The notes under the pieces are model-generated. The model had not been told where the DNA came from, made no database searches, and saw only the letters and a list, made by a program, of their open reading frames with translations. Of a stretch of DNA of 64,000 bases, positions 9,827 through 63,885 are shown one piece after another. The translations under genes and the position numbers were made by a program. Origin of the DNA: Paenibacillus xylanexedens (lineage in GTDB: Bacteria; Bacillota; Bacilli; Paenibacillales; Paenibacillaceae); assembly GCF_001908275.1 (NCBI RefSeq), contig NZ_CP018620.1, positions 3,596,001 to 3,660,000 of the forward strand, written 5' to 3'. Each line of letters starts with the position of its first letter. The stretch's first letter is position 1.

Positions 9827-9848
9827 CATACACTTCAGAACTGGAATG

Positions 9849-9874: not shown

Positions 9875-9963
9875 CACATGGTCCAGATTCTTCTTGTCAT
9901 CGCTCTGTGGTATGATGGATGAACAGGATCAACTGGATAATCAACGGTTTGGAGTGAAGGAAT

Positions 9964-44387: not shown

Positions 44388-44406
44388 GAGAATGATAATC
44401 ATTGTA
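44388..44406. promoter_or_regulatory. Fur box before the siderophore-binding lipoprotein gene
   Basis: GAGAATGATAATCATTGTA matches the 19-bp Fur consensus at 16 positions and lies 53 bp before ATG 44460. It predicts induction under iron limitation. Confidence 0.8.
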
Positions 44407-44459
44407 TGTATAACATTCTCACGGTTACATCAACAGATCACATAGGGGTGAAGGGTAAC

Positions 44460-45458: not shown

Positions 45459-45528
45459 GTGAATCAATTTCATAAGACCTTAATCCATTTTTAGTGAGTC
45501 ATGAAATTGATTCGAGTATGATCCCATA

Positions 45529-45568
45529 AGAAAGTTCTTCAGTCAGGGTTGAAGAGCTTTCTTTTTTC
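45529..45568 (+). terminator. Terminator after the siderophore-binding gene
   Basis: AGAAAGTTCTTCA pairs with TGAAGAGCTTTCT (one mismatch), followed by TTTTTT. Confidence 0.85.
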
Positions 45569-45580
45569 GTATACACTATT

Positions 45581-45599
45581 TTAAATGATAATAATTCTC
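45581..45599. promoter_or_regulatory. Probable Fur box before the AraC-SBP sensor gene
   Basis: TTAAATGATAATAATTCTC matches the Fur consensus at 14 of 19 positions and lies 18 bp before ATG 45617. Confidence 0.65.
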
Positions 45600-45616
45600 A
45601 GTTAAGGACGATGAAC

Positions 45617-47281
45617 ATGTGCCACACCATAATACAACTGATCCCCAAGCCCTGGCTATGCTCACTTCAGCATATGGAATACGTAGATCACCATCAATCT
45701 CATATCGATAAACGTTTGCTATATAAAATATCATCTTCACACTCTATATTCGTTGTAACGTCTGGGAAGGGTTCAATAGTTTGCTCAGATCGGGAATCTC
45801 ATCTGGAAAAAGGAATGATTATGTTTGTTCCGTCTGGAACATCCGTTAAAATAGAAGGTTCGCCTTGGACAGAAAGTGAATTGCAGTACTATAAGCTTGA
45901 TCTGATGGTGGCTGAGTTTAAAGAAGAGACTTCGAACGCTTTGTCTAGAAGAAACACGGAGCAGCAGCAGGAACTTTCCCAAAGTCCAGATTCTCCGACA
46001 TTATTACCTCTTATGCAACTCAGCTACAGTCCGTGGAGTTCCTGTCTGGAAGCCTTGGAACAAATACTGCGTCAACAGATCACTAGCGATTGGATGGAGC
46101 AATGGGAGGTACAGCTTCGTTTTCAGGAGTGGTTCCGAGCCTTGCTTCGCCAGAGTGATCCCAAAACAGAAGCACCCGATGATCGTGCCCGTCTTCAAAG
46201 TTCAATTCGTTATATTGTCGACCATTATGATCAGACCATAACCGTGGATGAGCTCGCAGCAGATATTGGTCTAACAAGAGCCAGCTATACTCGGCAATTC
46301 AAAAAAATTACGGGCAAGCTTCCGCTTGATTATGTGAATACGGTTCGGCTTGAACGCTCGAAACAACTATTGCAGCTGACGGATGATCGCATCCATGAAA
46401 TTGCACAGAATGTGGGATTTAGCAGCGAGTATTATTTTGGTCGCCGATTTAAGCAATACGCTGGTATTTCACCTGGGTTATACCGCCGTCATCACCGTCA
46501 AGAGGTTCGAGTCTTTGCTCCGTATCTGGAGGACTTTGTGTTGGCTCTTGGCGTAAAACCCGTATTGCAATGTTCGCATCATTCCTGGGGCAGACAGCAA
46601 TATTTGGGGTTGGATGACGTACCTGAATTTGATGTGAGCCAGATGGATGCGCAGTTTAATCTAGGCAATGTACCTGATTTTATCATGCTGGATAAGGGAT
46701 ATGATCGATGGAATCTGGACCGCTTTGAGCAGGTAGCACCTACATTTTACGTAGATCATCTGGGGGAGGATTGGCGCTCTATTTTGAGATCGACCGCCGA
46801 TGTATTGGGAAAAGTGAATCGGGTTCAAGATGTAATTGGTGCGTATGAGGACAAGGCAATGGAAGCTAAGAGTCGGTTAGCACGTTATATGCGTGGTCAG
46901 ACGGTAGCTTTTTTGCGTATATCTGCTTCGGATATTACTCTCTATGGGGATCAGCAGGGTTACGTTGGGCCTGTAATTTATCAGGATCTTGGACTGACTC
47001 CGCACTCCCGTGTACAGCAATGGACAAGATACGAGCGGAGGATTTTCATTGGATTGGACCAGTTAAGTCAGCTTAATGCGGATCACTTGTTGATTACATT
47101 TGACACTGGAAATTCTGCCAAACCTGGAGATGAGCGCGAACTACTCGAAAGGAATGAATGGAAACGTCTGCCTGCGGTGAAGAGCGGCAATGTGTATGAG
47201 GTGGATTTCATGTCATGGATGAACTACGGTGTGATCTCTCATGGGAAGAAAATTGAGGATATATTGCGGTTTATGGCTTGA
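45617..47281 (+). CDS. Btr-like AraC regulator fused to a siderophore-binding domain
   Basis: 554 residues from ATG 45617 (AAGGA eight bases upstream; ATG 45611 also in frame). An N-terminal cupin-like region (about 1-110) and an AraC DNA-binding domain (about 195-295; VDELAADIGLTRASYTRQF, IHEIAQNVGFSSEYYFGRRF) join directly to a binding-protein domain (about 298-554) without a signal sequence. Btr of Bacillus subtilis has this design and activates siderophore uptake after binding bacillibactin. This protein is therefore a cytosolic siderophore sensor, likely activating the gene upstream. Confidence 0.9.
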   Translation: MCHTIIQLIPKPWLCSLQHMEYVDHHQSHIDKRLLYKISSSHSIFVVTSGKGSIVCSDRESHLEKGMIMFVPSGTSVKIEGSPWTESELQYYKLDLMVAEFKEETSNALSRRNTEQQQELSQSPDSPTLLPLMQLSYSPWSSCLEALEQILRQQITSDWMEQWEVQLRFQEWFRALLRQSDPKTEAPDDRARLQSSIRYIVDHYDQTITVDELAADIGLTRASYTRQFKKITGKLPLDYVNTVRLERSKQLLQLTDDRIHEIAQNVGFSSEYYFGRRFKQYAGISPGLYRRHHRQEVRVFAPYLEDFVLALGVKPVLQCSHHSWGRQQYLGLDDVPEFDVSQMDAQFNLGNVPDFIMLDKGYDRWNLDRFEQVAPTFYVDHLGEDWRSILRSTADVLGKVNRVQDVIGAYEDKAMEAKSRLARYMRGQTVAFLRISASDITLYGDQQGYVGPVIYQDLGLTPHSRVQQWTRYERRIFIGLDQLSQLNADHLLITFDTGNSAKPGDERELLERNEWKRLPAVKSGNVYEVDFMSWMNYGVISHGKKIEDILRFMA

Positions 47282-47740: not shown

Positions 47741-47854
47741 TCATATTGAAGCCTGACCGTCATCTATATGTGGTATTATCCCCTTTAAGTAGACACTAAA
47801 AAAAAACTTCATGTTATCATGGAGGTTCAAGTGATACTTGGAGGGGATATTTTT

Positions 47855-48175
47855 ATGGCGAAAAAAGGGCAAACATTTCAGACATATACGGAAGAATTCA
47901 AATTGAATGCAGTTAGATCCTATGTCGAAGGTTCTTCAAGTTACAAGGTGGTTGCTGAGCGCGAGGGGATTCGAAACTGTTCACAACTGAAGGTGTGGGT
48001 GAAAAAGTGGAAAAACGGGGAAGCGTTCGATGAGCGAAAAAACAGTGTGCCCAATCCACTGAAGGGACGTCCCCGTAAAGCCTTTGGCAGCGTGGAGGAA
48101 GAACGAGACTATCTTCAAGCACAGGTGGATTATTTAAAAAAGCGGTATCCAAATCTAGTAAAGGAGAAGCGCTGA
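47855..48175 (+). CDS. IS3-family transposase OrfA
   Basis: 106 residues from ATG 47855 behind GGAGGGG. It has the HTH of IS3 OrfA (TEEFKLNAVRSYVEG, YKVVAEREGI, LKVWVKKW) and a C-terminal leucine-zipper-like stretch (VEEERDYLQAQVDYLKKRY). It binds the IS ends and is fused to OrfB by -1 frameshifting. Confidence 0.92.
   Translation: MAKKGQTFQTYTEEFKLNAVRSYVEGSSSYKVVAEREGIRNCSQLKVWVKKWKNGEAFDERKNSVPNPLKGRPRKAFGSVEEERDYLQAQVDYLKKRYPNLVKEKR
48136..48142 (+). other. Programmed -1 frameshift heptamer A_AAA_AAG
   Basis: In the OrfA frame the codons read TTA AAA AAG, the classical IS3 slippery site. A one-base slip back joins OrfA to the OrfB frame, producing the full transposase OrfAB. Confidence 0.8.
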
Positions 48176-48207
48176 GCCAACGGGAGAACTACGATATCAT
48201 AGATGAA

Positions 48208-49035
48208 TTGCGCTGCTCGCATGACATTACACGCCTATTATCGATTACAGGAATACCCCGTTCCAGTTACTACAAATGGCGAGCAACACAGCCGCAGCGA
48301 GATGCAAGACAAGACCGTGACCGTGAGATCAAAGAACACATGATGGCTATTCATTTTGAAAACCGAGAGTTTGGTTATCCTCGTATGACAACGGCGCTCT
48401 GGGAGTCTGGCCTGAACGTGAATCACAAGAAAGTATATCGAATCATGCGGGAACTATCGATCCAATCAGTGATTCGCAAGAAGCGGAAGAAGTCCAGCTA
48501 TACGCCATCTGTGATCTATCCGAATCGCCTAAAGCGCCAATTTCATGCTACAGCACCCCAGCAAAAAATGGTGACGGATATTACCTATATTTCGGATGGG
48601 AATTCATTCGTTTACCTGTCCGTGATTCAAGACTTGTTCAACAACGAGATTGTAGCTTGGCAGTTATCTAAACGGAACGATGTTCAGCTCGTATTGGATA
48701 CGGTGGAACAATGGACACAAAAAAGAGACGTTTCAGAAGCCGTGCTCCATTCGGATCAGGGCTTCCAATATACGTCTCAGGCGTACAACACACGATTAGA
48801 AGCATTCGGCATTAAGGGCAGCCACTCTCGCAAAGCAACCTGCCTGGATAACGCATGCATCGAATCCTTCTTTTCGCATCTCAAGACAGAGAAGCTGTAC
48901 CTTAATCAGTGTAATTCAGAAGTAGAGATTCGACAAGCCGTGGAAGATTATATGTACAATTACAATTACCGACGTTTTCAAGCCAAACTCAAACAGCGCG
49001 CACCGATTGAATATCGATGCGCGCTGGCAGCATAG
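48208..49035 (+). CDS. IS3-family transposase OrfB (DDE integrase domain)
   Basis: Open in the -1 frame relative to OrfA; the TTG at 48208 is nominal, since translation normally enters by frameshift from OrfA. The rve core shows the catalytic triad: Asp in VTDITYIS, Asp in HSDQGFQY and Glu in NACIESFFS. The N-terminal HTH_21-type region (FGYPRMTTALW) is present. It ends 11 bp before the right inverted repeat. All catalytic residues are kept. Confidence 0.92.
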   Translation: MRCSHDITRLLSITGIPRSSYYKWRATQPQRDARQDRDREIKEHMMAIHFENREFGYPRMTTALWESGLNVNHKKVYRIMRELSIQSVIRKKRKKSSYTPSVIYPNRLKRQFHATAPQQKMVTDITYISDGNSFVYLSVIQDLFNNEIVAWQLSKRNDVQLVLDTVEQWTQKRDVSEAVLHSDQGFQYTSQAYNTRLEAFGIKGSHSRKATCLDNACIESFFSHLKTEKLYLNQCNSEVEIRQAVEDYMYNYNYRRFQAKLKQRAPIEYRCALAA

Positions 49036-50038: not shown

Positions 50039-51364
50039 TTAGCGATCTAAATCCATTGACATGTGTTGAGTGTGGCGACGAAGACCTAGCGTTACGAGTA
50101 GATAAATACAGGTCAGGACAGCCGATACAGCACTGCTGATCCAGATTCGTTCAAGCCCCGAAAAAGATGAAAGCATCTGCAACAAAAATTGAGCGATCCA
50201 TCCCCCCAGTGTGATAAGAGGAAGTGCAATGCCGTGTGTACGCTTGTGAATTAAAGTCAGTAGCAGCATGGGACCAAGCATGCAAGCATGCAATGATCCG
50301 AACAAATACAGGATTTGAATTGGCGTCATCGACACGGAAAGGGAAATGATGGTTGCTATAAACATGGCCATGCAAATGATGATGTTCCGGGTACGTTTTT
50401 CACCGGAGTTGGCAAGGTTGAATTGTTCCATACATAATTTCAGAACGGCTTGAAACCGGCTCATATAGGACACCGTGAACATCAGGATTAGACATATAAT
50501 CAACATTCCAAACAAAACGGGTGAATGGGTTATGGACAATAGCGGATAGATCAGAGACGGTATATTTGCCAGCCCACCAGAATGAATGGAGACCATCACG
50601 AGCAGTAGAAAAGCCATTAGCACCGTAGCATACATCATGCCTGACATCATAAATACTGGCACAATTTTGGATCGTTCGATGTGAAATAGACGCTGCCAGG
50701 TAGCCGGATCAGCAATAACCTGTCCCAGACCAACCAATACACCAGTTAAGATAAAAAGCAGTGCAGAATGGTTGTCGATCACCAGCATATAAGGATGATA
50801 CAGGCGAATTCCAGAGTAAACTGGGTCAACACCTTGTCGGATAAAATAAAACAAAGGAAACATGATGGCAACGCTGAAAGTCAGAATGACTTGGGGAATA
50901 GCCAATGTATAGAGTGTCTGTAATCCAATAAAACCTGCAAGTAAAGAGCAGATGACGATAAAAGCCGTTCGCCCAGCAACTTCGGGAAGACCGAATAATT
51001 GATGAAAGAAGAATCCGGATACCATTCCTTGCAGGAGCACCGTTTCCAGAAGCAGTATCGCAAACAATCCTGTCATCAAACGAGCACCTGAAGGTGTCAG
51101 TTTGGCTGTCAGCCATTGACTCATTGTTGCCGCATCACCGGAGTGGCTTCGCACATATTTACCCAGCCATCCAAATAACATCAGCGCGAGGGCTGTAGCG
51201 AGAGAGTACCCCAAAGTGCCGTACAAGCCATAACGCATCAATGCTTCAGGCGAATCTACAATGTTGAGGCCGGTGAGCCATCTTCCAAGCAACGCAATAG
51301 TTCCAAGTCCAATACCCAGTTTGACAGGCGCCGCCAAATTGTCGCGGAAATGATTGTAACGCAT
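50039..51364 (-). CDS. Sodium:solute symporter-like membrane protein
   Basis: 441 residues from the ATG at 51364 (GAAGAGGAA upstream), with about 12-13 hydrophobic segments. The pattern resembles the SSS/LeuT-fold family, such as GVLVGLGQVIADPATWQRLF followed by a long membrane segment. It is preceded one base away by a YesN-type regulator, so kinase, regulator and symporter form one leftward operon. The substrate is unknown; the protein may also serve as a sensor subunit. Confidence 0.75.
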   Translation of the reverse strand: MRYNHFRDNLAAPVKLGIGLGTIALLGRWLTGLNIVDSPEALMRYGLYGTLGYSLATALALMLFGWLGKYVRSHSGDAATMSQWLTAKLTPSGARLMTGLFAILLLETVLLQGMVSGFFFHQLFGLPEVAGRTAFIVICSLLAGFIGLQTLYTLAIPQVILTFSVAIMFPLFYFIRQGVDPVYSGIRLYHPYMLVIDNHSALLFILTGVLVGLGQVIADPATWQRLFHIERSKIVPVFMMSGMMYATVLMAFLLLVMVSIHSGGLANIPSLIYPLLSITHSPVLFGMLIICLILMFTVSYMSRFQAVLKLCMEQFNLANSGEKRTRNIIICMAMFIATIISLSVSMTPIQILYLFGSLHACMLGPMLLLTLIHKRTHGIALPLITLGGWIAQFLLQMLSSFSGLERIWISSAVSAVLTCIYLLVTLGLRRHTQHMSMDLDR

Positions 51365-51365
51365 C

Positions 51366-52064
51366 TTAATTCCTCTTCTCACGGAACTTTTTGGGTGGCA
51401 TCCCCACATGTTTATGGAATTGTGTGCAGAAGTAGTGCTGGCTGTTAAAGCCACACCGCTCAGCAACGTCAGCAATATTCAAATCTGAATGACGGTGAAG
51501 GAGCTGTTTGGCGTACTCCATTCGCAATTGATTCAGATATTCAGAGAAAGAGATGCCTACTTCTTCATGGAAGAGTCGGCTCAGATAGGTTGGATTCATG
51601 TGAACAGCTGAGGCGAGCCCGGAGAGATTGATTTTTCCTGAAAACTGTTTTTGCATAATCTGGAGTGCTTCCTGAATGACTTTGGACTGCACGGCTGGCG
51701 AGGCATTATGATCAAACTCATGCAGTACTTCGAGCAATTCCTGTTCAATGACGGGCTTGGTGATGTAATCCATAACTTTCAGCTTGATTGATTGACGAGC
51801 GTATTGAAAGTTGTGGTGTGCAGAGATCATGATAATATGAATTTCGGGGTGAAGACGGCGCAGGTCCTCGGCAACGAGCAGACCGGATTTGCCAGGGAGA
51901 TTGATATCGAGCAGGGCGAGTTGAATCTGTACTTCTTGTCCAATCGATGTGGCTTGTGTTCCATCGGCAGCTTTGTAGAGACGCCAGAAAGGAAATTGAG
52001 GCTGAATTAGAAATTCCAGCTGCTCCAGTTCCAGAGGCTCGTCATCAACCAGCAATACATTCAT
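51366..52064 (-). CDS. YesN/AraC-type response regulator
   Basis: 232 residues. The receiver domain has VDDEP, the phospho-acceptor Asp in LALLDINLPG, Ser-Ala in MISAHH and the Lys in ITKP. The AraC DNA-binding domain (about 135-230) has LSGLASAVHMNPTYLSRLF and IADVAERCGFNSQHYFCTQF. It is paired with the LytS-type kinase upstream. Its targets are probably the symporter and perhaps the adjacent transporter and amidohydrolase genes (inference). Confidence 0.93.
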   Translation of the reverse strand: MNVLLVDDEPLELEQLEFLIQPQFPFWRLYKAADGTQATSIGQEVQIQLALLDINLPGKSGLLVAEDLRRLHPEIHIIMISAHHNFQYARQSIKLKVMDYITKPVIEQELLEVLHEFDHNASPAVQSKVIQEALQIMQKQFSGKINLSGLASAVHMNPTYLSRLFHEEVGISFSEYLNQLRMEYAKQLLHRHSDLNIADVAERCGFNSQHYFCTQFHKHVGMPPKKFREKRN

Positions 52065-52103
52065 GATGAAGTCCCCCTATTCGTGATGTATCGTTCTCCA
52101 TAA

Positions 52104-52868
52104 TTAATGAGCTTTCAATATCTCTTCTTGGGTATAGGGCCAACGGACCTCAACGACAGCTCCTTCTTGTGGTCCCGCTGATAAGCTTAGAGAACTCTCC
52201 TCACCAAAAAAAATATGAAGTCGCTTTCTGATATTTTCCAGCCCATGTCCTTGAATCATTTCAGCTGAGGATATTGGTTTGAGACCCACACCATTATCGA
52301 TTACGGTTAGCAACACTTGCTGTCGACTTCGAAGACAACGGATGGTTAACTCGACAGGGCCCATTTTTGGTTCAAGTCCATGTTTGAACGCATTTTCTAC
52401 AATGGTTTGAAGCACAAAGGGAGGGATATAAGCATCAAGCACATTCTCATCGTATTCCGTGACAAGTCGCAAGCGTTCACCAAACCGCAGATGCTGAATC
52501 TCCAGATAATGACCGGTATAACGAATCTCTTCTTCCAGACGAATCATGGGCTCATCGGTATTGTACTTGAATTTGAGGAATTTGGAGAAAACCTCAAGTG
52601 CACCGACAACCTGTTCGGTACGACGTAGTCTGGCGAGACTGAGAATGACGTTGAGGGTGTTAAACATAAAGTGAGGCTGGATCTGTTGACTGAGCTGTAC
52701 ATACAGTGATTTTTGGAACTCTTTCTCCAACTCGATCTGTTTTTTTTGCATCCGAAGCAAGTCCAGCTGTTTCTCGAAAAAAAACAAAATCAATAGAGCA
52801 ATCGCCCCCACAATGGGAGCGATTATGAATATTAGGACGATGAGGGTAAATTGATCAAGATTAATCAT
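52104..52868 (-). CDS. LytS/YehU-type sensor histidine kinase
   Basis: 254 residues; GGAGG precedes the ATG. One N-terminal membrane segment (about 7-31) and a coiled linker lead to the His_kinase motif QIQPHFMFNTLN and the ATPase boxes ENAFKHGLEP and GVGLKP with GHGLENIRKR. It is unusually short, with no input domain, so it may sense through a partner such as the symporter encoded in the same operon, as in Bts-like or Cbr-like systems (inference). Confidence 0.92.
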   Translation of the reverse strand: MINLDQFTLIVLIFIIAPIVGAIALLILFFFEKQLDLLRMQKKQIELEKEFQKSLYVQLSQQIQPHFMFNTLNVILSLARLRRTEQVVGALEVFSKFLKFKYNTDEPMIRLEEEIRYTGHYLEIQHLRFGERLRLVTEYDENVLDAYIPPFVLQTIVENAFKHGLEPKMGPVELTIRCLRSRQQVLLTVIDNGVGLKPISSAEMIQGHGLENIRKRLHIFFGEESSLSLSAGPQEGAVVEVRWPYTQEEILKAH

Positions 52869-53054
52869 GATGGTCCTCCATGCTAAATGCTAACATTGGG
52901 TGTCTATTGAATCTGATAGAGCCATCCGTAAATCATAAAACTTATTAAAATATGAAGTTGAAAGGGAAATGTATTGTCATCTTAATTTATTTTGGTAAGT
53001 GATTCAATAGAGGGCAAGCAGTTTGTAAATGGTGCCCAAAAAAGCTTCATGATT

Positions 53055-54086
53055 TTAGGAAATAAGATGGCAGGCAGCCTGATGTCCCTCATGAATGGTG
53101 CGCAGTTCGGGAACTTCAGAAGAGCAGCGATCAACTGCAAATGGACAACGTGTATGAAACCGGCATCCACTAGGTGGGTGGATGGGAGAAGGGATATCAC
53201 CGGTTAACTGAACACGTTCTTTGGGCTGATTACGTTTCGTCGATGGAATGGAACTCAGCAGTGCGCGTGTATACGGATGTTGCGGGCGATCAAACAGCGA
53301 TTTTTTATCAGCGATCTCGACGATTGTGCCCAAGTACATCACGATCACACGATCAGAGATGTGACGGACCACACCAAGATCATGGGAAATAAACAGGTAG
53401 GTCAGTTGATGTTGTTTCTGAAGTTTTTTGAGCAAATTAATAATCTGAGCCTGGATGGATACATCCAGTGCAGAGACGGCTTCGTCACAGATAATCAATC
53501 GGGGCTCCAGGGCAAGTGCTCGAGCGATACCAATCCGTTGGCGCTGCCCACCACTAAATTCATGAGGCAAACGATCAATATGCTCCGGACGCAAACCAAC
53601 ATTGTCCATCAGTTCACGGATGCGTTCATCCTGTTTGCCGCGAGGGACTACTTTCTGGATCTCCAGTGCTTCCTTCAAAATCTGTCGTACGGTCTGGCGT
53701 GGGTTTAAAGAGGCGAAGGGGTCTTGAAAAATAATCTGCATATCCTTGCGCATTCGCTTTAACTCAGCTTTATTTAACTCTAGAATGTTCTTACCCTGAA
53801 AATATATCTCTCCACTCGTTGGATCATCGAGTCGCAGGATGGAACGGCCCGTCGTTGATTTGCCACAACCCGACTCCCCTACAATGCTGAGCGTTTCACC
53901 TGCATGAATCTGAAAGCTGATGTCATCCACAGCTTTGACATGGTGAACCACTCTGCCAAGCAGGCCTCCTCGAATCGGAAAGTATTGTTTCAAATGCCTG
54001 ATATCAGCAAGGACATCAGAACTCGAAAGTGCCGAAGATTCCATGTCCGTTGCGGATAATTGGCGGTTCATGTGGATGCTTTTCAT
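53055..54086 (-). CDS. Oligopeptide/dipeptide-type ABC transporter ATPase, OppF/DppF-like
   Basis: 343 residues. Walker [16 protein letters not shown], signature [15 protein letters not shown] and Walker [14 protein letters not shown], with the C-terminal oligo_HPY extension ([15 protein letters not shown]). The start overlaps the OppD-like stop by four bases. It is the last of four transporter genes reading leftwards. Confidence 0.94.
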
Positions 54087-55129
54087 ATCACTTTGCTCCC
54101 TTCCTGATTCGAGATGTGCGGTTGGCCGCTTACATAACAGTCACTCCATTGATCGTCATACATCCAACAGCGTACCGATTCTTCATCAGAACTTTTCAAC
54201 AGCTCAGGCTGCGCCATAGAACAGATATCTTTGCGGAAAGCACATCTGGGGGCGAATCGGCACCCTGAAGGCAGATCATAAGGACTCGGAACAGTTCCCG
54301 GGATGGCTAACAACTCGTCCTGGTCCTCATCGATCCTTGGCAGTGACTGAAGCAGTCCCTGGGTGTATGGATGTTTGGGGTTATCAAATATGGAATCCAC
54401 AGAGGCGTATTCAACAATCTGTCCTGCATATAGAACAGCCACGCGGTCACAGGTTTCTGCAACAACACCCAAATCATGTGTGATCAGGATGATGGACATG
54501 CCCATACGCTGCTGGAGTTGCTTCATCAGATCAAGAATCTGAGATTGTACAGTTACATCGAGCGCTGTCGTGGGTTCGTCTGCGATTAACAGATCAGGTT
54601 GACAAGCCATAGCCATTGCAATCATGACGCGTTGACGCATGCCGCCACTAAGTCGGAAGGGTTCCTGATGCGCGCGTTCTTCAGGGGAAGGTATTCCTAC
54701 CATGCGCAACAGTTCAACAGCCTTTGCCCAAGCTTCCTTCCGTCCCAGGTTCTCATGCAGCCTGAACACCTCAGCAACTTGTTCTCCGACTGTATAAACA
54801 GGGTTCAGCGAGGTCATTGGTTCTTGAAAAATCATGGATATCTCTTTGCCGCGAATGCACCGCATCTGTTCTTCAGACTTGGTCAGCAGATCCTCATTCT
54901 TGAACAAAATCTGACCTCCGACCGTTCGGCCCGGCCGACTTAGAAGCTGCATGATGGAGAGAGATGTCATGCTTTTTCCACAACCGGATTCTCCAACCAG
55001 ACCTAGTGTTTCTCCGCGATGTACACTGAAATCAATGCCATCAACGGCTTTGCTAATTCCTTCGTCCGTAAAAAAGTATGTTTGCAGTCCTTGTACTTCC
55101 AGCAACTTCTCCTGCGTTACCATAGCCAT
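54083..55129 (-). CDS. Oligopeptide/dipeptide-type ABC transporter ATPase, OppD/DppD-like
   Basis: 348 residues. Walker [16 protein letters not shown], signature [15 protein letters not shown], Walker [13 protein letters not shown], and the Cys-containing oligo_HPY tail ([15 protein letters not shown]). It forms the second ATPase of a heterodimeric pair with the OppF-like protein. Confidence 0.94.
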
Positions 55130-55144
55130 GCGATTTTCTCCTCC

Positions 55145-56065
55145 TTAATCCATCTCAATTCTTTTGTTGAAGTACCGGTATAACAGATCCACACCCAGAT
55201 TCACGAAAACAAAAATGACAGAAGCAACAAGTACGCCTCCTTGTACGACAGGGAGGTCCCTCATACGAATGGCATCAACGATCAATCGGCCCAGACCATT
55301 GATAGCAAAAACAGATTCAACCAGAACCGTCCCGCCAAGCAGTGTTCCAAATTGCAATCCGATGACAGTGATTACGGGAATAAGCGCGTTTTTGAGGGCG
55401 TGTTTGTATACAATGAGTCTATTTTTCAGACCTTTTGCCCGTGCGGTACGGATGTAGTCCTGATGAATGACATCTAGCATACTCGAACGGGTCATTCGGG
55501 CAACGATGGCGGCTCCCGAAGCACCAAGCGTGATAGCAGGTAAGATGACGTGTTCCAGGCTTCCCCAGCCGGTAACGGGTAAGAGATGAAATTTGACGGA
55601 GAAAAAGGAGATTAACATCATGCCCAGCCAGAAGCTGGGGAGCGAGATGCCCATCAGGGCAACCAGCATAATCAGGCGATCGGCTGTACTATGCTGACGG
55701 GTGGCGGATACAATTCCCGCTATCATACCAAGTACAATCGTGATGACAATACTGGCCAGTGCCAATTGAATGGTGGTGGGCAGGCGAAGCATAATTTCGT
55801 CCATTACCGGATGGTCTGAGCGATACGAAGTTCCCAGATCTCCGCGAAACACATCGAACACATACTGGATGTATTGCAGCGGAAGAGGTCGATCAAGTCC
55901 CAGATCATGGCGGATGGCTTGTACCGTTTCTTCAGATGCCCCGTCTCCGGCGATGAGAACGGCAGGGTCTCCGGGGACCATTTGCATAATGAGAAAGACA
56001 ACCAGAATGACGCCAAATATAACGGGAACGGTCTGAATGAGGCGTCGCACAATGTAAGTCAGCAT
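55145..56065 (-). CDS. Dipeptide/oligopeptide-type ABC permease, DppB-like
   Basis: 306 residues, six membrane helices. The N-terminal MLTYIVRRLIQTVPVIFG, the loop GLDRPLPLQYIQYV and the EAA-like loop (DYIRTARAKGLKNRLIVYKH) are typical of DppB/NikB. It pairs with the DppC-like permease upstream. Confidence 0.94.
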   Translation of the reverse strand: MLTYIVRRLIQTVPVIFGVILVVFLIMQMVPGDPAVLIAGDGASEETVQAIRHDLGLDRPLPLQYIQYVFDVFRGDLGTSYRSDHPVMDEIMLRLPTTIQLALASIVITIVLGMIAGIVSATRQHSTADRLIMLVALMGISLPSFWLGMMLISFFSVKFHLLPVTGWGSLEHVILPAITLGASGAAIVARMTRSSMLDVIHQDYIRTARAKGLKNRLIVYKHALKNALIPVITVIGLQFGTLLGGTVLVESVFAINGLGRLIVDAIRMRDLPVVQGGVLVASVIFVFVNLGVDLLYRYFNKRIEMD

Positions 56066-56096
56066 ATAGGATGTTCTCTTCCTTTCATGAGCAAAG

Positions 56097-56981
56097 TTAT
56101 TTTAATTTGGGGTCAAGTGCATCACGTAGACCATCACCAAACAGATTGAAGCCAATTACAAGTGTGGAGATGGCGAGGCCGGGGAAAAGAGCCAAGTATG
56201 GGGCACTGAACATGTAATCACGTCCACTGCTTAACAGGGCGCCCCATTCTGCGGAAGGAGGCTGAGCACCCAGACCTAGAAAGGAAAGACCTGCTGCGGA
56301 CAGAATGGCAGTTGCGAGGCGCAACGTAATCTGCACGATTATAGGCGACATAATATTGGGCAATATGTGCACGAGAATGATTCGCAGATCACTTCCGCCA
56401 AGCGTGCGTATGGAATCAATGTATTCGAGCTTCCGGACCGTCAGTGTTGAGCCTCTTACAATTCGTGCAAACATGGGAATGGAGAAGACACCAACAGCAA
56501 TCATGACATTGATCAGGCTTGCTCCCAGTGCACTGACGATAGCCAAAGCGAGCAAAATACCCGGGAAGGCCAGAAGGATATCCATGATTCTCATAATAAT
56601 GGCATCCATCCAACCGCCGTAGTAACCAGCTATCAGTCCCAGGAGCACACCGAAGATTGCACCAATACTTACAGCAGCAATACCGATTAATAGGGATAAA
56701 CGTGTTCCGTAGATGATGCGGCTAAGCAGGTCGCGACCCTTATCATCCGTACCCATCCAGTGATCCCAGGAGGGGAGAAGTAATTTGTCAGGCAGATGGA
56801 TGTTATAAGGATCGTATGGAGCAATCCACGGGGCAAAAAGAGCAACAATAATATAGAAGAGAACAATGAGGCCTCCGGCAGAGGCTAGTTTGTTTGCTGC
56901 CATACGGGTAAGAAACTTACGTAGTTGACCAGGTCTTATTACCGTGTGTGGAGCAGCAGGTGTGATCGCAGATTGATTCAT
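56097..56981 (-). CDS. Dipeptide/oligopeptide-type ABC permease, DppC-like
   Basis: 294 residues from the ATG at 56981, which has GGAGG upstream; the longer frame lacks a ribosome site. Signatures are YDPYNIHLPDKLLLPSWDHW, GTDDKGRDLLSRIIYGTR, the loop EYIDSIRTLGGSDLRIIL and the end FGDGLRDALDPKLK. It is the first gene of the leftward transporter operon, divergent from the amidohydrolase genes. Confidence 0.94.
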   Translation of the reverse strand: MNQSAITPAAPHTVIRPGQLRKFLTRMAANKLASAGGLIVLFYIIVALFAPWIAPYDPYNIHLPDKLLLPSWDHWMGTDDKGRDLLSRIIYGTRLSLLIGIAAVSIGAIFGVLLGLIAGYYGGWMDAIIMRIMDILLAFPGILLALAIVSALGASLINVMIAVGVFSIPMFARIVRGSTLTVRKLEYIDSIRTLGGSDLRIILVHILPNIMSPIIVQITLRLATAILSAAGLSFLGLGAQPPSAEWGALLSSGRDYMFSAPYLALFPGLAISTLVIGFNLFGDGLRDALDPKLK

Positions 56982-57187
56982 AGGAGCCTCCCTTATCGCT
57001 TGATATGTTAATAAAACTAACACACAATAGTGAAAAATAAAGGATTTTTACACATGAAGTAAAAATAACGAAAATTTAAGTAAAGATCATGTAAATAAAC
57101 ATGACAATTAATCGCTAGAATGGAATTCAAGGCAGGATTGATAGCCTCCAACTCCAAAACAAAGAATTAAGAAGGGGGAGATGCGAA
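56982..57187. promoter_or_regulatory. Divergent promoter region of transporter and amidohydrolase operons
   Basis: About 200 AT-rich bases between two start codons. A short inverted repeat, CATGT-6-ACATG (57088-57103), could be an operator. No clear promoter hexamers can be fixed by eye. Confidence 0.35.
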
Positions 57188-58468
57188 TTGGACTACATGA
57201 ATTCAACAGACTACTGGCTGCTTAATGTTCAGATTGAACGCCGCTATGTCTATGACGGGGATGCTGTACGGGGTACGGAAACAGAACTTAGTCATGTACA
57301 GATTAGAGAAGGGGTGATTGTGCAAGTCATTGCGGCTGACAGGATGAATTCGGTCAACATGGACGGAGAACAGATTCTGGCGGAGCCTGCGTATGATGGC
57401 AGAGGAATGTTGATGTTACCTTCATTTACTGAGAAGCATGTTCATCTGGATAAAACGTTGCTGGGCGAACCTTGGCAAGCGGTTATACCCGCCAGCGGGG
57501 TGGCCGGCAGATGTGAAATCGAAAAAAGGCTTCTTCCGCAGCTTGTCACACCGCCGTTGCAAAGGGCTGAACTTCTGCTTAAACGTCTGATTGAAGCAGG
57601 TTCTACTCATATACGGACCCATATCGATGTGTATCCTGAAGCAGGAACGAAACAACTGGAACCCGTATTGAACTTGTTCCATTCTTATCGTCATCAGATT
57701 ACACATGAGGTTGTGGCGTTCCCCCAGCATGGTTTATTGCGCTCGGGCAGTAAAGCATTGGTTCGTGAGGCGCTTCAGCAAGGGGCTCATCTGGTCGGCG
57801 GGGTTGATCCTGCAACAATGGACACAGATCTGGAGGCGAGTTTGCAGCTGATGGTGGAGCTTGCAGTTGAAGCGGGTGCAGGTATTGACCTGCATCTCCA
57901 TGATCCGGATTATTTGGGCACCTATACAATGAAGAGATTGGCAAGGTTGACTGTGGAAGCAGGACTGCAGGGAAATGTATCGATCAGTCATGCATTTGCA
58001 CTTGGTGAAGTCAGTGAGGCAGAAGCGCGATCTACAGCAGATCTGTTGGCAGAGGCGGGAATAACCATCATAACCAGTGCGCCTCATGGTCGAACACTGC
58101 CACCTGTGCCTCTGCTGTGGGAGCATGGAGTGAACGTGGAAGCGGGGTGTGACAACATTTATGATACGTGGCAACCCTTCGGAAACGGGGACATTCTGGA
58201 ACGTGCTTCGAGACTCGCAGAACGGTTTGCCTGGATTGATGAGCGTTCGTTAGCCCGGTCGCTGAGACTAATCACGGGAGGCAGAGAAACAATGGATGCT
58301 CAAGGTGAACGGGTGTGGCCTGTTCCGGGTGATTCGGCAGATTTGGTATTGGTGGATGCGAGTTGTGCAGCGGAAGCTGTCGCCCGCAGAGCACCAAGAA
58401 AAGCGGTTTTCTCCAAAGGACATCTCATCTGGGATGATCAGAAGGGACACCGAAAGGTGCATGAGTAA
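57188..58468 (+). CDS. Amidohydrolase, cytosine deaminase/AtzC-like, paralogue 1
   Basis: 426 residues, start TTG 57188 with GGGGGAG seven bases upstream. The metal-dependent amidohydrolase barrel shows HVHLDK, FPQHGLLRSG, the third ligand region IDLHLHD, the conserved His in SISHAF and the Asp in GCDNIYDTW followed by PFGNGDILE. The catalytic Glu of cytosine deaminase is replaced by Asp. It should hydrolyse an amide or amino group on a cyclic or linear substrate. It is most like paralogue 2 and divergent from the transporter operon. Confidence 0.88.
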   Translation: MDYMNSTDYWLLNVQIERRYVYDGDAVRGTETELSHVQIREGVIVQVIAADRMNSVNMDGEQILAEPAYDGRGMLMLPSFTEKHVHLDKTLLGEPWQAVIPASGVAGRCEIEKRLLPQLVTPPLQRAELLLKRLIEAGSTHIRTHIDVYPEAGTKQLEPVLNLFHSYRHQITHEVVAFPQHGLLRSGSKALVREALQQGAHLVGGVDPATMDTDLEASLQLMVELAVEAGAGIDLHLHDPDYLGTYTMKRLARLTVEAGLQGNVSISHAFALGEVSEAEARSTADLLAEAGITIITSAPHGRTLPPVPLLWEHGVNVEAGCDNIYDTWQPFGNGDILERASRLAERFAWIDERSLARSLRLITGGRETMDAQGERVWPVPGDSADLVLVDASCAAEAVARRAPRKAVFSKGHLIWDDQKGHRKVHE

Positions 58469-58495
58469 CCCTTTGGACAAACCTACGGATGTTCA

Positions 58496-59818
58496 TTGGA
58501 TTCAGATCATTTGACTAAAAAGGGGATGAGGAGCATTTTACAGCATCAGCATACACCGTATTGGTTACGTAATGTCCGTCTGGAACAAGGGTATCGTTAT
58601 GAGAATGATCATATAACCGGGACCATAAGTGAATTGTTTGATCTATGGATCGAACATGGAAAAATCATGCGAATCGTTAAAACGGAAGATCGTAATAGTT
58701 CAGGTTCGTTAACGACGATTACTACAGAATTAATGAATGAAGGAGAAGCGGAGTTGGCCATGCCAAGCTCAGATCGGGATGCCGGAGGTATGCTGCTTTT
58801 ACCAGGCTTCCGAGAAATGCATATTCACATTGATAAAACGTATTACGGTGGACCTTGGATCGCGCCGACGCCACCTGAAGGAATTTTCAAAAGAATTGCA
58901 GAGGAGCGTGAACTGCTGCCGCGGCAATTGCCGCATGCGCAGGAGAGGGCTGTGAAAGTATTGTCTCTTCTGCAATCCAGCGGGGTTACGCATGTGCAAA
59001 CCCACTGCAATATTGATCCCCAGATCGGGCTTGCCAACCTTGAAGCAACGGTGTCAGCCGCAGCTCAGTTTAGCCAGAGTCTCACATGTGAGATCGTGGC
59101 GTTTCCACAACATGGTCTTCTACGCAGTGGCGTCGTTGCAGAAATGAAAGAGGCACTGCGACGCGGTGCACGCTGGGTAGGCGGGGTGGACCCGGCAACG
59201 GTGGATAATGATATTGAAAAATCACTCTTTAACATCATGGACCTGGCGGTGGAAGCCAATGCAGGAGTGGATATTCACATTCATGATCCGGGTCATTTGG
59301 GCACATTTACGATGAATCGTCTTGCAGCGATGACGGAGCAGGCCGGTTGGCAGGGACGTGTGAATGTGAGTCATGCATTGGGTTTTGCAGACGTTACAGA
59401 AACGATGCAGGTGCAACTGGCCGAACGGTTTGCGGAACTGGATATCTCGATAACGTCAACTGTGCCGCTTAACCGCTGGATGCCCTATTCTCTTCTGAAG
59501 AAATACGGAGTTCGAGTTGAATTGGGTGAAGATACCATTACGGATCACTGGGGACCTTTCGGCCGTGGAGACATATTGGAACGAGCCGGACGGTTGGCTG
59601 AGCGTGAGAGATGGAGTTCAGAACGGGGATTAGCCGAGACACTGGGATATATTACAGGGGGAATCACCCCGTTAGATGTACAGGGTAATGTTCAATGGCC
59701 TCTCATTGGTGATCCAGCGACAGCGGTTCTTGTGCAGGCTTCCTGCTCGGCTGAAGCGATCGCAAGGCGTTCAGCGCGAGGTGCATTCATATATCAGGGG
59801 AATCTGGTTAACGTGTAA
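58496..59818 (+). CDS. Amidohydrolase, cytosine deaminase/AtzC-like, paralogue 2
   Basis: 440 residues, nominal start TTG 58496; the ribosome site is weak and ATG 58526 is an alternative. Active-site motifs are HIHIDK, FPQHGLLRSG, VDIHIHD, VSHALG and the Asp in GEDTITDHW with PFGRGDILE. It shares the N-terminal arrangement YWLRNVRLEQGYRYE with paralogue 1, so the two are the closest pair. It lies 27 bp behind paralogue 1. Confidence 0.85.
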   Translation: MDSDHLTKKGMRSILQHQHTPYWLRNVRLEQGYRYENDHITGTISELFDLWIEHGKIMRIVKTEDRNSSGSLTTITTELMNEGEAELAMPSSDRDAGGMLLLPGFREMHIHIDKTYYGGPWIAPTPPEGIFKRIAEERELLPRQLPHAQERAVKVLSLLQSSGVTHVQTHCNIDPQIGLANLEATVSAAAQFSQSLTCEIVAFPQHGLLRSGVVAEMKEALRRGARWVGGVDPATVDNDIEKSLFNIMDLAVEANAGVDIHIHDPGHLGTFTMNRLAAMTEQAGWQGRVNVSHALGFADVTETMQVQLAERFAELDISITSTVPLNRWMPYSLLKKYGVRVELGEDTITDHWGPFGRGDILERAGRLAERERWSSERGLAETLGYITGGITPLDVQGNVQWPLIGDPATAVLVQASCSAEAIARRSARGAFIYQGNLVNV

Positions 59819-59868
59819 CATTCAGACATATTGCATCATTCAATCCACAACGGAAGTAGGAGATTATT

Positions 59869-61425
59869 ATGAAAAAAAGAGGGTTTGTCGGAAGCATGCT
59901 GGCATTGTCCATGACACTTGTAATCAGTGCTTGTTCATCGGGAGGAACATCTACTGCAGGTGGTGAAGCGGTCTCTCCGGGAGAACGCCAATCGGGCGGT
60001 ACACTGGTCATAGCGAGACAGAGTGATGCAAATAATCTGGACCCTCAGTACAGTTCCCAGATTAATTCGATGGCGGTATACCATCATAAAATAACAGAAG
60101 GGCTTGTCTTGATGGACAAGAACAGCAAGTACCAACCATTGCTGGCTACGGAGTGGACGCAACTGAATGATACAACATGGGAGTTCAAATTGCGTGAGGG
60201 AGTGTCTTTCCATGATGGGACACCTTTTAATGCAGAGGCTGTTCAAAAAACGTTTGAACGTATTCCGGCTACACCCAAAGCAGGCATGTTCTCCATGATC
60301 AAGGAAGTGAAGGCGGTGGACGAGCATACGATTCAGTTTATCCTGAATTATCCTTACGCTCCAATCATGTCGCTGCTTGCCAGTGCGGAAGGAAATATAC
60401 TTAGCCCGGCTTCCATAGAATCGGCGGGAACAGATATGGTGAAGGAACCTGTCGGAACAGGACCGTTTGTATTTGAATCATGGACGCCAGGAGACAAAAT
60501 TGTACTTGCTAAAAATGAAAATTATTGGGGCGACAAACCAAACATTGATAAAGTGGAGTTTAAAACCGTCCCGGAAGATACGACTCGCTTAGCGATGGTT
60601 GAGACAGGAGAGGCTCAGGTAGCAGAACAGGTTCCCTCCACGGAGATTGCGCGGATTGAAGCATCTTCAACCATGAAACTGGGGCGTTACGAGGCTTTTT
60701 CTACGGACCATATAGGGTTTAATACAAGCAAAGAGCCATTTAACAACCCGTTGGTTCGCCAGGCTGTAGCGTACGCGGTGGACAAGGAATCTATCGTCAG
60801 CGGCGTGTACAACAATATTGGCAAGGTAACGGACTCCACACTTGGAACCACGATGATCGGATACAGTTCCAATGTGAAGGGGTACAGTTATGATCTGAAC
60901 AAAGCGAAGTCCTTGCTTGCTGAGGCTGGCTATCCAGAGGGGTTCTCGGCCACGTTATATACCAGTGATAATAAAACAAGGGTGAACGTAGCGGAAGTAT
61001 TACAGTCTCAGTTGAAAGGTATTGGAATTAACCTTGAGGTGAAAGTGCTGGAGTTTGGAGCTTACATTGATGCAGCAGCCAAAGGGGAAACCGAAATGTT
61101 CCTGAGTGGATGGGGGAATGCAACAGGCGATGCGGATTATAACCAGTTCAACCTGTTTCACAGCACCTCCAAAGGAGTCCCTGGTAATCATTCCTTCTAT
61201 AATAATCCGGATGTGGATCAGTTCATTGAAGATGCCCGGAAAGAAACGGACCCGGATAAACGCACTGCCATTTATGAAAAAGCGATTCAACTTGAGCTGA
61301 ATGATGTTCCCATTCTACCGTTCCGTAATGGGGAGAATCTGGCAGCCCTCTCCAAAGATGTGGATGGGGTATGGATTAGTCCATCCGGTTTTGTTGAGAT
61401 CAACAGCGCAAGCTTTCTGAAATAA
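59869..61425 (+). CDS. Dipeptide/oligopeptide-type substrate-binding lipoprotein
   Basis: 518 residues, SBP_bac_5 family. The lipobox is LVISAC. Typical motifs include GGTLVIARQSDANNLDP, LREGVSFHDGTPFNAEAV, GTGPFVFESWTPGDKI and ARKETDPDKRTAIYEKAIQ. It delivers substrate to the permeases encoded on the opposite strand. Being interleaved with amidohydrolases suggests the imported compound is their substrate or a precursor. Confidence 0.94.
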   Translation: MKKRGFVGSMLALSMTLVISACSSGGTSTAGGEAVSPGERQSGGTLVIARQSDANNLDPQYSSQINSMAVYHHKITEGLVLMDKNSKYQPLLATEWTQLNDTTWEFKLREGVSFHDGTPFNAEAVQKTFERIPATPKAGMFSMIKEVKAVDEHTIQFILNYPYAPIMSLLASAEGNILSPASIESAGTDMVKEPVGTGPFVFESWTPGDKIVLAKNENYWGDKPNIDKVEFKTVPEDTTRLAMVETGEAQVAEQVPSTEIARIEASSTMKLGRYEAFSTDHIGFNTSKEPFNNPLVRQAVAYAVDKESIVSGVYNNIGKVTDSTLGTTMIGYSSNVKGYSYDLNKAKSLLAEAGYPEGFSATLYTSDNKTRVNVAEVLQSQLKGIGINLEVKVLEFGAYIDAAAKGETEMFLSGWGNATGDADYNQFNLFHSTSKGVPGNHSFYNNPDVDQFIEDARKETDPDKRTAIYEKAIQLELNDVPILPFRNGENLAALSKDVDGVWISPSGFVEINSASFLK

Positions 61426-61445
61426 CGGACGGAGGAGTGGTCAAC

Positions 61446-62747
61446 ATGATCCGCCAACTCATTCAAAATTGCCGGATTCCCGGGAGTCATGGACTACATG
61501 ATATCGTATTGCATGGTACAACCATTGAGCAGATCCTGCCGTCTTCGGACGGTGGGGGTTCATCCATAAGTGACATGACAGGTATGATCCATGGAGAACT
61601 TGAAGAAAATCATGGGCAGTATGGATTTATATTTGATGCTAAGGGTGGTCTCGTACTGCCAGGTTTAATTGAGCCCCACGTCCATCTGGAAAAGGCGCTT
61701 TTGCTTGATTGCATGCCTGGTGATGCTGCCTCATTGCAGGAAGCGATCTCGATGACAGCTGCGCTTAAGGCCGGGTTTACGGAGTCCGATATGATCCAAA
61801 GATCCATAGAAGTCATCCGAAAACTGTCCCGTTACGGCGTAACCAGACTCCGTTGTCATGTTGAAGTGGACCCCATGCTGGAACTACGGGCTATGAACAG
61901 TGCGTTGACTGTGAAAGAAAAAATGGAGGACATGATGGGGATCCAGATTGTGGTCTTTCCGCAAGAAGGAATTTTTAGTACCCCAGGTACCGCAGATCTT
62001 ATGGAAGAGGCAGTAAGGATGGGAGCCGACGTAATTGGTGGAATTACTTATGTTGATCCCATACTGGATGATCATCTGAATTTTGCGTTTGAACTGGCTG
62101 CGCGGTACAATCGCCCCCTTGATTTCCATGCTGATTTCTCATTAAATGCTGAAGATGAAGCTATACTTCACATTGCGAATAAGACCTTGGATTATGGGTT
62201 CCAGGGTAGAGTTTCGGCTGGTCATGTAACTTCGCTTGCGGCTATGCCTCGGGAAAAGGTGAAGTTATACGCTAGAAAGATTGCAGAAGCGGATATCCAT
62301 CTCATGACCCTTCCTGCAACAGATCTGTACCTGAATGGTCGAGCGGATAACGATAACACCCGCAGAGGCATAACGCCGGTTAGTTTGTTGCGGGACGAAG
62401 GGGTCAACGTGATTTACGGCGCTAACAATATTCAAAATGCCTTTACACCTTTTGGTAATGGCAATCCGTTTGATATCGCTTGGTTGCTTGCCCATGCGGC
62501 CTACATGGGGAGTGAAGCGGATGCCGATACTTTGGTGGAGATGGCAACACTTGGTGCAGCACGGGCGATGGGGATAGAAAATTATGGTCTTCGAGCTGGA
62601 GCACAGGCCGATCTGGTCATATTTCCAGTGCAGTCAAGGCGTGAACTGATTATTGAACGACCGCGACCTGTTGGAGTATGGAAGAATGGTCGCCTTCTGA
62701 CTACGAGAGTGGAGGATGGAGAATGTCATGAAATTAGTTATCGATAA
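61446..62747 (+). CDS. Amidohydrolase-like, paralogue 3, with altered metal site
   Basis: 433 residues from ATG 61446 behind GGAGGAG. It keeps HVHLEK, VFPQEGIFS, LDFHADF and SAGHVTS, but the Asp found in the other three (CDN, EDT, SDN) is Asn in GANNIQNAFTPFGNGN, and the catalytic acid position is Phe. So the metal site is altered: it may use another chemistry, be regulatory, or be inactive. Its end overlaps paralogue 4. Confidence 0.82.
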   Translation: MIRQLIQNCRIPGSHGLHDIVLHGTTIEQILPSSDGGGSSISDMTGMIHGELEENHGQYGFIFDAKGGLVLPGLIEPHVHLEKALLLDCMPGDAASLQEAISMTAALKAGFTESDMIQRSIEVIRKLSRYGVTRLRCHVEVDPMLELRAMNSALTVKEKMEDMMGIQIVVFPQEGIFSTPGTADLMEEAVRMGADVIGGITYVDPILDDHLNFAFELAARYNRPLDFHADFSLNAEDEAILHIANKTLDYGFQGRVSAGHVTSLAAMPREKVKLYARKIAEADIHLMTLPATDLYLNGRADNDNTRRGITPVSLLRDEGVNVIYGANNIQNAFTPFGNGNPFDIAWLLAHAAYMGSEADADTLVEMATLGAARAMGIENYGLRAGAQADLVIFPVQSRRELIIERPRPVGVWKNGRLLTTRVEDGECHEISYR

Positions 62748-63885
62748 TGTACTTTTGCCTACTGGAACACACACTTTGGTTATTGAAGAGGGGAAGATTA
62801 CACAGGTCATAGCAGAATCCACGGATCAGGATCAAATAATACATGCTCGCCAGAGCGCTTCCGAATCATGGAACGCTGCCGGGCTTGTGTACCTTCCCAC
62901 ACTTGCAGACATGCATTGCCATCTGGACAAACATCATATCGGTGAACGCTGGATTCCCCTAGAGCCGTTCCAGACACTGGAGTCCCATCTTGCTTATGAA
63001 AAAAAGCTGCTGGGTGGATTGACCCAAACGGTGGGACAACGGGCGAAAGTTCTTGCGGAACAAATGATTGATTACGGTACAACGCGCATTCGTACACATG
63101 TGGATGTGGACTCTGAGGTGGGGCTCCGAAATCTGGAGGCAATCCTACGCGTACGAGATGAGCTTCGTGATGATATGGACATTGAGATTGTGGCATTTCC
63201 ACAGCAAGGGCTCATTCGTTCATCATCTGAACAGATCGTGAAGGAGGCGCTGGCACTAGGTGCCGATCTGGTTGGTGGTGTCGACCCGGCAGGTCTGGAT
63301 CAGGATATGGAACGCAGTTTACAGATGATGTTCGATTTGGCTACGGCTACAGATAAGGGGATCGACCTTCATCTGCATGATGGAGGTGAACCCGGTTTAG
63401 CTACCTTACGGCGATTTGCTGAATTGACAATGGAGGCAGGACTTCAACATCGAACAGCGGTTAGTCATGCCTATTGCTTGGGGCAGCAAACGGAATCCGA
63501 CGTACAGCCTACCCTTGATGTATTAAAACATGCTGGAGTAACACTCGTATCTAGTGTGCCTATTGATCGTCCAATGCCGCGAGGAAGCCAAATCCTCAAA
63601 ACAGGTGTTAACTTCATGCTTGGCTCCGATAACATCCGTGATGCCTGGTCTCCATTCGGCAACGGGGATATGTTACAGCGAGCTTCCCGAATGGCTGAAC
63701 GTGAAAATTGGGTCAGTGATGACAGGTTGCTGGGCACCTATGCGTGGGTGAGTAATGGCAAGTTAACCCCGAGCGTTGGTGATTCGGCTGACTTCATGTT
63801 AGTTCGGGCATTAAACGCCCAGCACGCCCTAACTTCTGTACCCGCGCGCGCGGCGGTATTCAAAAAGGGCAAACGTATACGTTGA
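62728..63885 (+). CDS. Amidohydrolase, cytosine deaminase/AtzC-like, paralogue 4
   Basis: 385 residues from ATG 62728 (GGAGGATGGAGA upstream; ATG 62716 also in frame). Motifs are HCHLDK, FPQQGLIRSS, GVDPAGLDQD, IDLHLHD, VSHAYCLG and the Asp in GSDNIRDAW with PFGNGDMLQ. All metal ligands are kept. It overlaps the end of paralogue 3 by 20 bp, so the two are coupled. It is the last gene visible. Confidence 0.88.
   Translation: MKLVIDNVLLPTGTHTLVIEEGKITQVIAESTDQDQIIHARQSASESWNAAGLVYLPTLADMHCHLDKHHIGERWIPLEPFQTLESHLAYEKKLLGGLTQTVGQRAKVLAEQMIDYGTTRIRTHVDVDSEVGLRNLEAILRVRDELRDDMDIEIVAFPQQGLIRSSSEQIVKEALALGADLVGGVDPAGLDQDMERSLQMMFDLATATDKGIDLHLHDGGEPGLATLRRFAELTMEAGLQHRTAVSHAYCLGQQTESDVQPTLDVLKHAGVTLVSSVPIDRPMPRGSQILKTGVNFMLGSDNIRDAWSPFGNGDMLQRASRMAERENWVSDDRLLGTYAWVSNGKLTPSVGDSADFMLVRALNAQHALTSVPARAAVFKKGKRIR

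Follow-up and report, generated by a model that had tools for sequence, protein, structure and literature searches.

A conserved Paenibacillus gene block combines a dipeptide-type ABC importer, a sensor operon, and four amidohydrolases, one of them from an Asn-Asn family

Gene content and layout of the block

The window analyzed here is a 64-kb stretch (bases 3596001 to 3660000) of the larger contig of the 7.1-Mb Paenibacillus xylanexedens genome. It carries a gene block in which four amidohydrolase genes (A1 to A4) accompany an ATP-binding cassette (ABC) importer and a kinase-regulator-symporter operon (Table 1). All of the genes named in a preliminary description of the locus, namely a complete SBP_bac_5 importer, four amidohydrolases, and the kinase-regulator-symporter operon, are present. 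New here are the family to which A3 belongs, termed NN after its Asn-Asn pair, the pairing of A3 with A4, and the probable operon origin of atzC, a gene found on atrazine plasmids.

The genes for A1, A2, the substrate-binding protein (SBP), A3, and A4 follow one another on the plus strand with junctions of 27, 50, 11, and −32 bases. Profile searches identified a complete Dpp/Opp-type ABC importer, made up of this SBP_bac_5 protein, two permeases, and two ATPases. The permease and ATPase genes are on the minus strand, divergent from the A1-A4 run, and 186 bases separate the ATPases from the kinase-regulator-symporter operon. The best NCBIfam models for the SBP were GsiB, NikA, and DppA, each below its cut-off. 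The histidine kinase is presumably of the LytS/YesM type. For the symporter-like protein, the ATG at 51364 (441 aa), 1 base past the stop of the regulator gene, is the most likely start, rather than the one at 51475 proposed earlier. The protein had no Pfam or NCBIfam match at 1e-3; of six homologues, two that share 36% and 34% identity with it carry PF00474.

Table 1. Features of the gene block (window coordinates) and atzC loci used for comparison (locus coordinates)
Feature	Position	Strand	Basis
A1, YahJ-type amidohydrolase	57188..58468	+	NF005312 496 bits, cut-off 447; 38.8% identical to E. coli YahJ
A2, YahJ-type amidohydrolase	58496..59818	+	NF005312 516 bits, cut-off 447; 40.4% identical to YahJ
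SBP_bac_5 substrate-binding lipoprotein	59869..61425	+	PF00496 341 bits
A3, NN-type amidohydrolase	61437..62747	+	Motifs, homologue alignment, predicted structure
A4, AtzC-like amidohydrolase (D-N motif)	62716..63885	+	Motifs, tree, neighbor of A3 throughout the genus
DppC/GsiD-like permease	56097..57023	-	NCBIfam, curated cut-off not reached
DppB/GsiC-like permease	55145..56065	-	NF045470 358 bits, cut-off 350
DppD-like ATPase	54083..55129	-	NCBIfam, curated cut-off not reached among the matches listed
DppF-like ATPase	53055..54086	-	NF008453 436 bits, cut-off 408
Short histidine kinase, no sensor domain recognized	52104..52868	-	PF06580, PF02518
Response regulator, AraC-type output	51366..52064	-	PF00072, PF12833
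Distant sodium:solute-symporter-like membrane protein	50039..51364	-	PF00474 in two of six homologues
Candidate operator TCATGT-N6-ACATGA	57087..57104		Perfect inverted repeat in the divergent promoter region
atzC loci on atrazine plasmids	L128 1798-6710; L176 6442-11660; L175 8468-11164		

Conservation and loss of the block

The whole block, with its gene order kept, was found in 5 of 75 genomes of the genus (its own and G068, G050, G049, and G047; type I loci). Since the same order recurs in these five genomes at protein identities of 67 to 99% to the window's block, the layout is not due to chance. All four other type I genomes also carry the symporter-like gene (66 to 96%). G047 is the most divergent: its A1 to A4 are 70 to 78% identical, its importer proteins 85 to 92%, and its symporter-like protein 67%. 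A3 itself had matches of at least 59% identity in 8 of the 75 genomes, and among named loci from a contig scan it reached 95% in Paenibacillus xylanexedens DSM 21292 and 94% in Paenibacillus sp. LS1.

A sixth genome, G070, carries genes that match the flanks of the window's block, and everything from window position ∼49781 to ∼63204 is gone. At the scar (L174, positions 9766 to 10503), all that is left of A4 is its last ∼226 residues, beside a phosphoenolpyruvate (PEP)-synthase-like gene. G070 has lost the cluster as one block, sensor operon included, which supports the boundaries first drawn for it and identifies the block as self-contained and deletable. The link made in the preliminary description between the four amidohydrolases and the transporter holds in the genus sample, where they are retained together in five genomes and lost together in one. 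Downstream PEP-synthase-like and sulfatase-like genes, both labeled by eye, were considered as pathway members and rejected, as both stay in G070 after the block loss.

Four amidohydrolases of separate lineages

A2 to A4 are 26 to 48% identical to A1. In a 64-row tree, A1 and A2 fell on separate branches of the YahJ-type group, A4 formed a separate neighboring group, and A3 lay in a distant clade, a topology that rejects recent tandem duplication. The four are old lineages rather than local copies. A1 and A2 resemble E. coli YahJ (Table 1), which excerpts of one study list as a predicted twin-arginine translocation (Tat) substrate (PMC7549933). YahJ is 47.5% identical to a solitary paralogue elsewhere in the window's genome, and a search of that genome with A1 returned eight members, one of them CodA-like and beside a permease-like gene. 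A3 and A4 scored below the cut-off of every NCBIfam model listed.

For each of the four enzymes, the top PDB matches were AtzC and CodA-type entries, and the HxH motif, the strand-5 and strand-6 His residues, and the substrate Gln are present in each. A1 (HVHLDK, HLHD, DN), A2 (HIHIDK, HIHD, DT), and A4 share the AtzC pattern of HxHxxK, HxHD, SHA, and D-N (D-T in A2), plus Trp. They retain the strand-8 Asp (CodA Asp313), and at the position of CodA Glu217 they have HxHD, as does AtzC. From sequence alone, these three were placed in the CodA cluster (subtype III) of the amidohydrolases. However, AtzC is 30 to 35% identical to A1 and A4, and the window offers no triazine context. A3 departs further from AtzC, lacking both the Asp and the Trp and carrying Asp where AtzC has His219.

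A3 and the NN family

The motifs of A3 read HxHxxK, HADF, GHVTSL, N-N, and Phe. Compared with CodA, Asp313 and Asp314 are replaced by Asn330 and Asn331 and Glu217 by Phe234, while Asp233 and the metal-site histidines are kept. Residues were counted in the best 120 of 1250 A3 matches. All 120 homologues have Asn-Asn at CodA Asp313-Asp314 and Phe at Trp319, and CodA His61, His63, Gln156, His214, Asp216, and His246 are invariant among them; the Glu217 position is occupied by Phe in 110, Leu in 8, and Asp in 2. With Asn fixed to this extent, the idea that A3 is a decayed copy was rejected.

The Asn pair was found in all 55 fetched A3-family loci (54 by one pattern and L093 by a slightly wider one) and also in E. 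faecalis and on two Rhizobium plasmids. The next-nearest matches in the genus, 14 at 34 to 36% identity, are excluded from the NN counts; 12 were checked and all 12 keep the Asp. In the 64-row tree, the NN sequences formed one clade (support 96/97) that requires a single change. The structure prediction for A3 was of high score (predicted local distance difference test score, 90.0; predicted template-modeling score, 0.90), and Foldseek matched the model best to 4r7w, a 5-methylcytosine deaminase (TM-score relative to the query, 0.87), with AtzC entries at 0.80 to 0.83. A3 is thus predicted to have the (beta/alpha)8 fold of the cytosine-deaminase type.

Several members of the A3 family are now annotated "cytosine deaminase." The preliminary description had assigned the whole branch to the removal of amino or amide groups, and for A3 this is a poor simple fit because two catalytic residues of CodA-type deaminases, the Asp and the Glu, are missing. 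Excerpts of a study of 15,000 subtype III sequences describe the Asp-His-Glu machinery as highly conserved in both classes (PMC12828455, 2025); AtzC, of the same class in that study, has His instead of Glu. Passages of an AtzC study report that the D303N variant is active on ammelide (kcat, 90.4 versus 26.2 per s; Km, 6.1 versus 3.1 mM), with H249A being dead (PMC4577212). Because AtzC D303N is active, Asn at the strand-8 site does not rule out catalysis by A3. A3 probably functions as an active metallo-hydrolase despite lacking the usual Asp and Glu. The invariant Asp233, two residues past the strand-5 His, could perhaps serve as the acid/base or proton-transfer residue. In titles and abstract openings of the open-access literature, no description of an Asn-type subfamily was found. 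The family, seen here in Bacillota and Rhizobium, breaks the residue pattern by which catalysis is described in its superfamily, and in the window's genus it comes with a fixed partner and a testable operon.

Pairing of A3 with A4 and exchange of importers

Across the 75 genomes of the genus, 18 NN-type genes (at least 53% identity, 15 genomes) and 17 full-length A4-type genes (at least 51%) were identified, and each of the 17 directly adjoins an NN-type gene. The 18th NN gene, in G055, adjoins broken A4 pieces, and the remnant in G070 accounts for the 18th A4 match; at a second locus in G068, the NN-type gene beside the full-length A4-type gene is itself broken by two stops. Seven more matches from the A4 search (40 to 43%) were of the A1/A2 type. 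The second G068 locus and that of G055 (L060 and L059) are of type II and contain stops or split genes; the many split genes of G055 may reflect assembly error. Distances among A3 and A4 proteins were correlated over 21 nonredundant loci (r = 0.96; Mantel p = 0.0002), a figure that ignores kinship and partly reflects shared genome descent.

Among the 55 NN loci, an A4-type gene was found within 9 kb in 34, a YahJ-type gene in 8, and a PucR/CdaR-like regulator in 28. The importers varied, with SBP_bac_5 at 5 loci, CUT1-like (by eye) at 11, Peripla_BP_6 (LIV-type) at 8, and an NMT1/THI5-type SBP at 8. Neighbor labels at these loci were assigned by similarity to one representative each, some representatives being profile-tested and some judged by eye; by-eye or one-representative labels include CUT1-like, LIV-type permeases and ATPases, PucR/CdaR-like, and IS3-type. 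In wider samples, A3 had matches at 1e-85 in 44 of 295 genomes of the family (7 of 19 genera) and at 1e-80 in 12 of 398 genomes of the class, 8 of which were from the window's genus.

The window's genome carries a second A3-A4 pair (C1, 4480385 to 4489439; L010, 6386 to 15440) with a PucR/CdaR-like regulator, a CUT1-like importer, and a PF04909 amidohydrolase. This layout was repeated in ten other fetched loci, two of which are broken copies.

Gene neighborhoods of relatives

Five of the 55 NN loci, all from genus g18 of the window's family, have the order FdrA, AllG, AllH-like, carbamate kinase, permease, and A3. A Rieske-type gene together with a RidA-like gene was present at 10 of the 55 loci, an Asp/Glu-racemase-like gene at 11, and XdhC at 8. 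In g12, 10 of 12 loci carried Rieske oxygenase, RidA-like, racemase-like, and other amidohydrolase genes, with XdhC in addition at eight of these. The E. faecalis locus combines the NN-type gene with a g18-type permease (67%), AllD, carbamate kinase, DUF2877, FdrA fused to an AllG-type part, PucR, and a YahJ-group enzyme. On pRL10 of R. ruizarguesonis, three enzymes stand in a row: one that is AtzC-like with D-N and falls outside the A4 tree group, an 8-oxoguanine deaminase, and one of NN type. On pRLN4 of R. leguminosarum, AtzF (allophanate hydrolase) and two isochorismatases are near the NN-type gene, which a gamma-glutamyltransferase-family gene adjoins.

By the available excerpts, AllFGH is an oxamate carbamoyltransferase that acts on oxalurate (PMC11326118), and in nitrifiers allFGHK accompanies biuret genes and ABC importers of the nucleoside type (PMC12625717). 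The g18 and E. faecalis AllFGH-carbamate kinase loci share an NN-type hydrolase with the window, whose genome in contrast lacks AllG. In E. coli, the run yahE-fdrA-yahG-yahH-yahI is followed by yahJ; unlike this run, the window encodes neither a carbamoyltransferase nor a carbamate kinase, and it has an ABC importer and a sensor of its own. Further YahJ-type genes, located on plasmids, had no ureide- or carbamoyltransferase-type neighbors, so the link of YahJ to ureide-type genes is not universal.

A locus on Ensifer canadensis pT173d (L136, 8225 to 23205) also resembles the block, with a YahJ-type enzyme (Ens_c, 63% to YahJ), an AtzC/A4-like enzyme (Ens_b), and ABC importers, one of which is annotated as nickel-type and includes two ATPases and two permeases. 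No described function was found for this cluster. It differs in its order and in having two importers. None of the three hydrolases examined there is NN-type, Ens_b lies outside the A4 tree group, and the third amidohydrolase is of a different kind. A flavin reductase and an Asp/Glu racemase are additional.

A possible operon source of atzC

On pADP-1, a carbamate kinase gene precedes atzC at a distance of 57 bases. The kinase gene is itself preceded by a truncated AllG-type (DUF1116) gene, covering residues 251 to 417 on pTC1 and pAD51 and ∼70 residues on pADP-1. Beyond an IS5 element, pADP-1 and pTC1 encode a membrane protein that shares 40% identity with the g18 permease. The pieces on the atzC side mirror the NN-type operons of g18. 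AtzC itself keeps the Asp and falls outside the NN clade of the 64-row tree. Thus, atzC seems to have been taken from a carbamoyltransferase-type operon like those of g18. Nothing linking AtzC with carbamate kinase was found in the open-access literature, and no natural ancestor of atzC was found named in its titles, abstract openings, and selected passages. A concrete origin is therewith offered for an enzyme well known as an example of recent evolution.

Proposed function and alternatives

Taken as a whole, we put at roughly 60% the probability that the block is an inducible import-and-hydrolysis module for a small N-heterocycle or cyclic ureide, with A3 and A4 at its core. The substrate would be a small N-heterocycle, the likeliest candidates being cyclic ureides or rings of the lactam type akin to breakdown products of purines and pyrimidines. 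It would be taken up by the Dpp-type importer, and A3 and A4 would carry out the core ring hydrolysis or deamination; A1 and A2, of YahJ type, may act as accessory hydrolases in later steps or on related substrates. The kinase and regulator, which probably sense the state of the symporter-like protein, would turn on the divergent operons. The dedicated pathway for N-heterocycle import and hydrolysis envisaged in the preliminary description is supported in outline by the co-inherited unit and by relatives near N-heterocycle and ureide catabolic genes. No description of such a Paenibacillus cluster of amidohydrolase and ABC transporter genes was found in open-access titles and abstract openings, and the open-access literature yielded no pathway for YahJ, A3-type, or A4-type enzymes.

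Several observations weigh against this proposal. SBP_bac_5 importers often have peptides or metals as cargo. No neighbor in the window or at any relative's locus names the substrate, and substrates may differ among the NN loci because their importer classes differ. An A4-type gene within 9 kb is missing from 21 of the 55 NN loci, and the A3-A4 correlation, calculated with no species-tree control, is not proof of interaction. In addition, the window's genome has no match to AllG (PF06545) and already encodes a canonical allantoinase elsewhere (543 bits). With these two features, allantoin breakdown was rejected as the simple job of the block.

A broader proposition is that the NN family is a new active catalytic subtype, with Asn for the strand-8 Asp and Asp233 as acid/base, that A3 and A4 form the core of a general module set on varied importers, and that AtzC came from a related operon. 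As a whole, this remains tentative, the odds being somewhat against it.

Alternatively, A3 could be a silent pseudo-enzyme that assembles with, stabilizes, or regulates A4, with hydrolysis left to A1, A2, and A4. Such a role would fit the strict pairing and co-divergence with A4 and the loss of the Asp and Glu that excerpts of the subtype III study call highly conserved (PMC12828455). It is unlikely in view of the invariant metal-binding histidines (three), essential His, and substrate Gln, the 21 NN loci lacking a nearby A4-type gene, and the reported activity of AtzC D303N (passages of PMC4577212).

Less probable again is a peptide-like substrate (cyclic dipeptides or gamma-glutamyl or N-acyl amides) entering through a true di- or oligopeptide importer. 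The best NCBIfam match of the SBP, though below cut-off, is the glutathione binder GsiB, and a gamma-glutamyltranspeptidase is found near NN-type genes at L091 and on R. leguminosarum pRLN4. However, other loci use different importer classes, ureide, purine, and aromatic-ring genes are commoner as neighbors, and the nearest solved relatives work on pyrimidines and s-triazines. That four unrelated salvage deaminases lie near a transporter by chance or shared regulation, with no common pathway, is very improbable: A1 to A4 are indeed old separate lineages, but their order is shared by five genomes and lost as a block in a sixth, A3 and A4 are almost invariably paired within the genus, and the junctions flanking A3 are 11 and −32 bases.

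Promoter region and flanking genes

The candidate operator (Table 1) is kept in all five type I loci; because four are near-identical there, the case for its conservation depends mostly on the divergent L048. Allowing up to 1 mismatch, the repeat has one match in the 64-kb window (0.36 expected), and 29 of 100 shuffled sequences held such a match, so a chance match in 64 kb is not rare. An extended form of the repeat occurs once in the genome. That the candidate operator is linked to the window's response regulator is a guess.

Near the left edge of the cluster is a transposase gene pair (47819 to 49035; IS3-type by eye) that is missing from the matching place in G070. Farther left, at 44406 to 47281, are genes recognized by eye as encoding a binding lipoprotein of the siderophore type and an AraC regulator that includes a binding-protein-like part.

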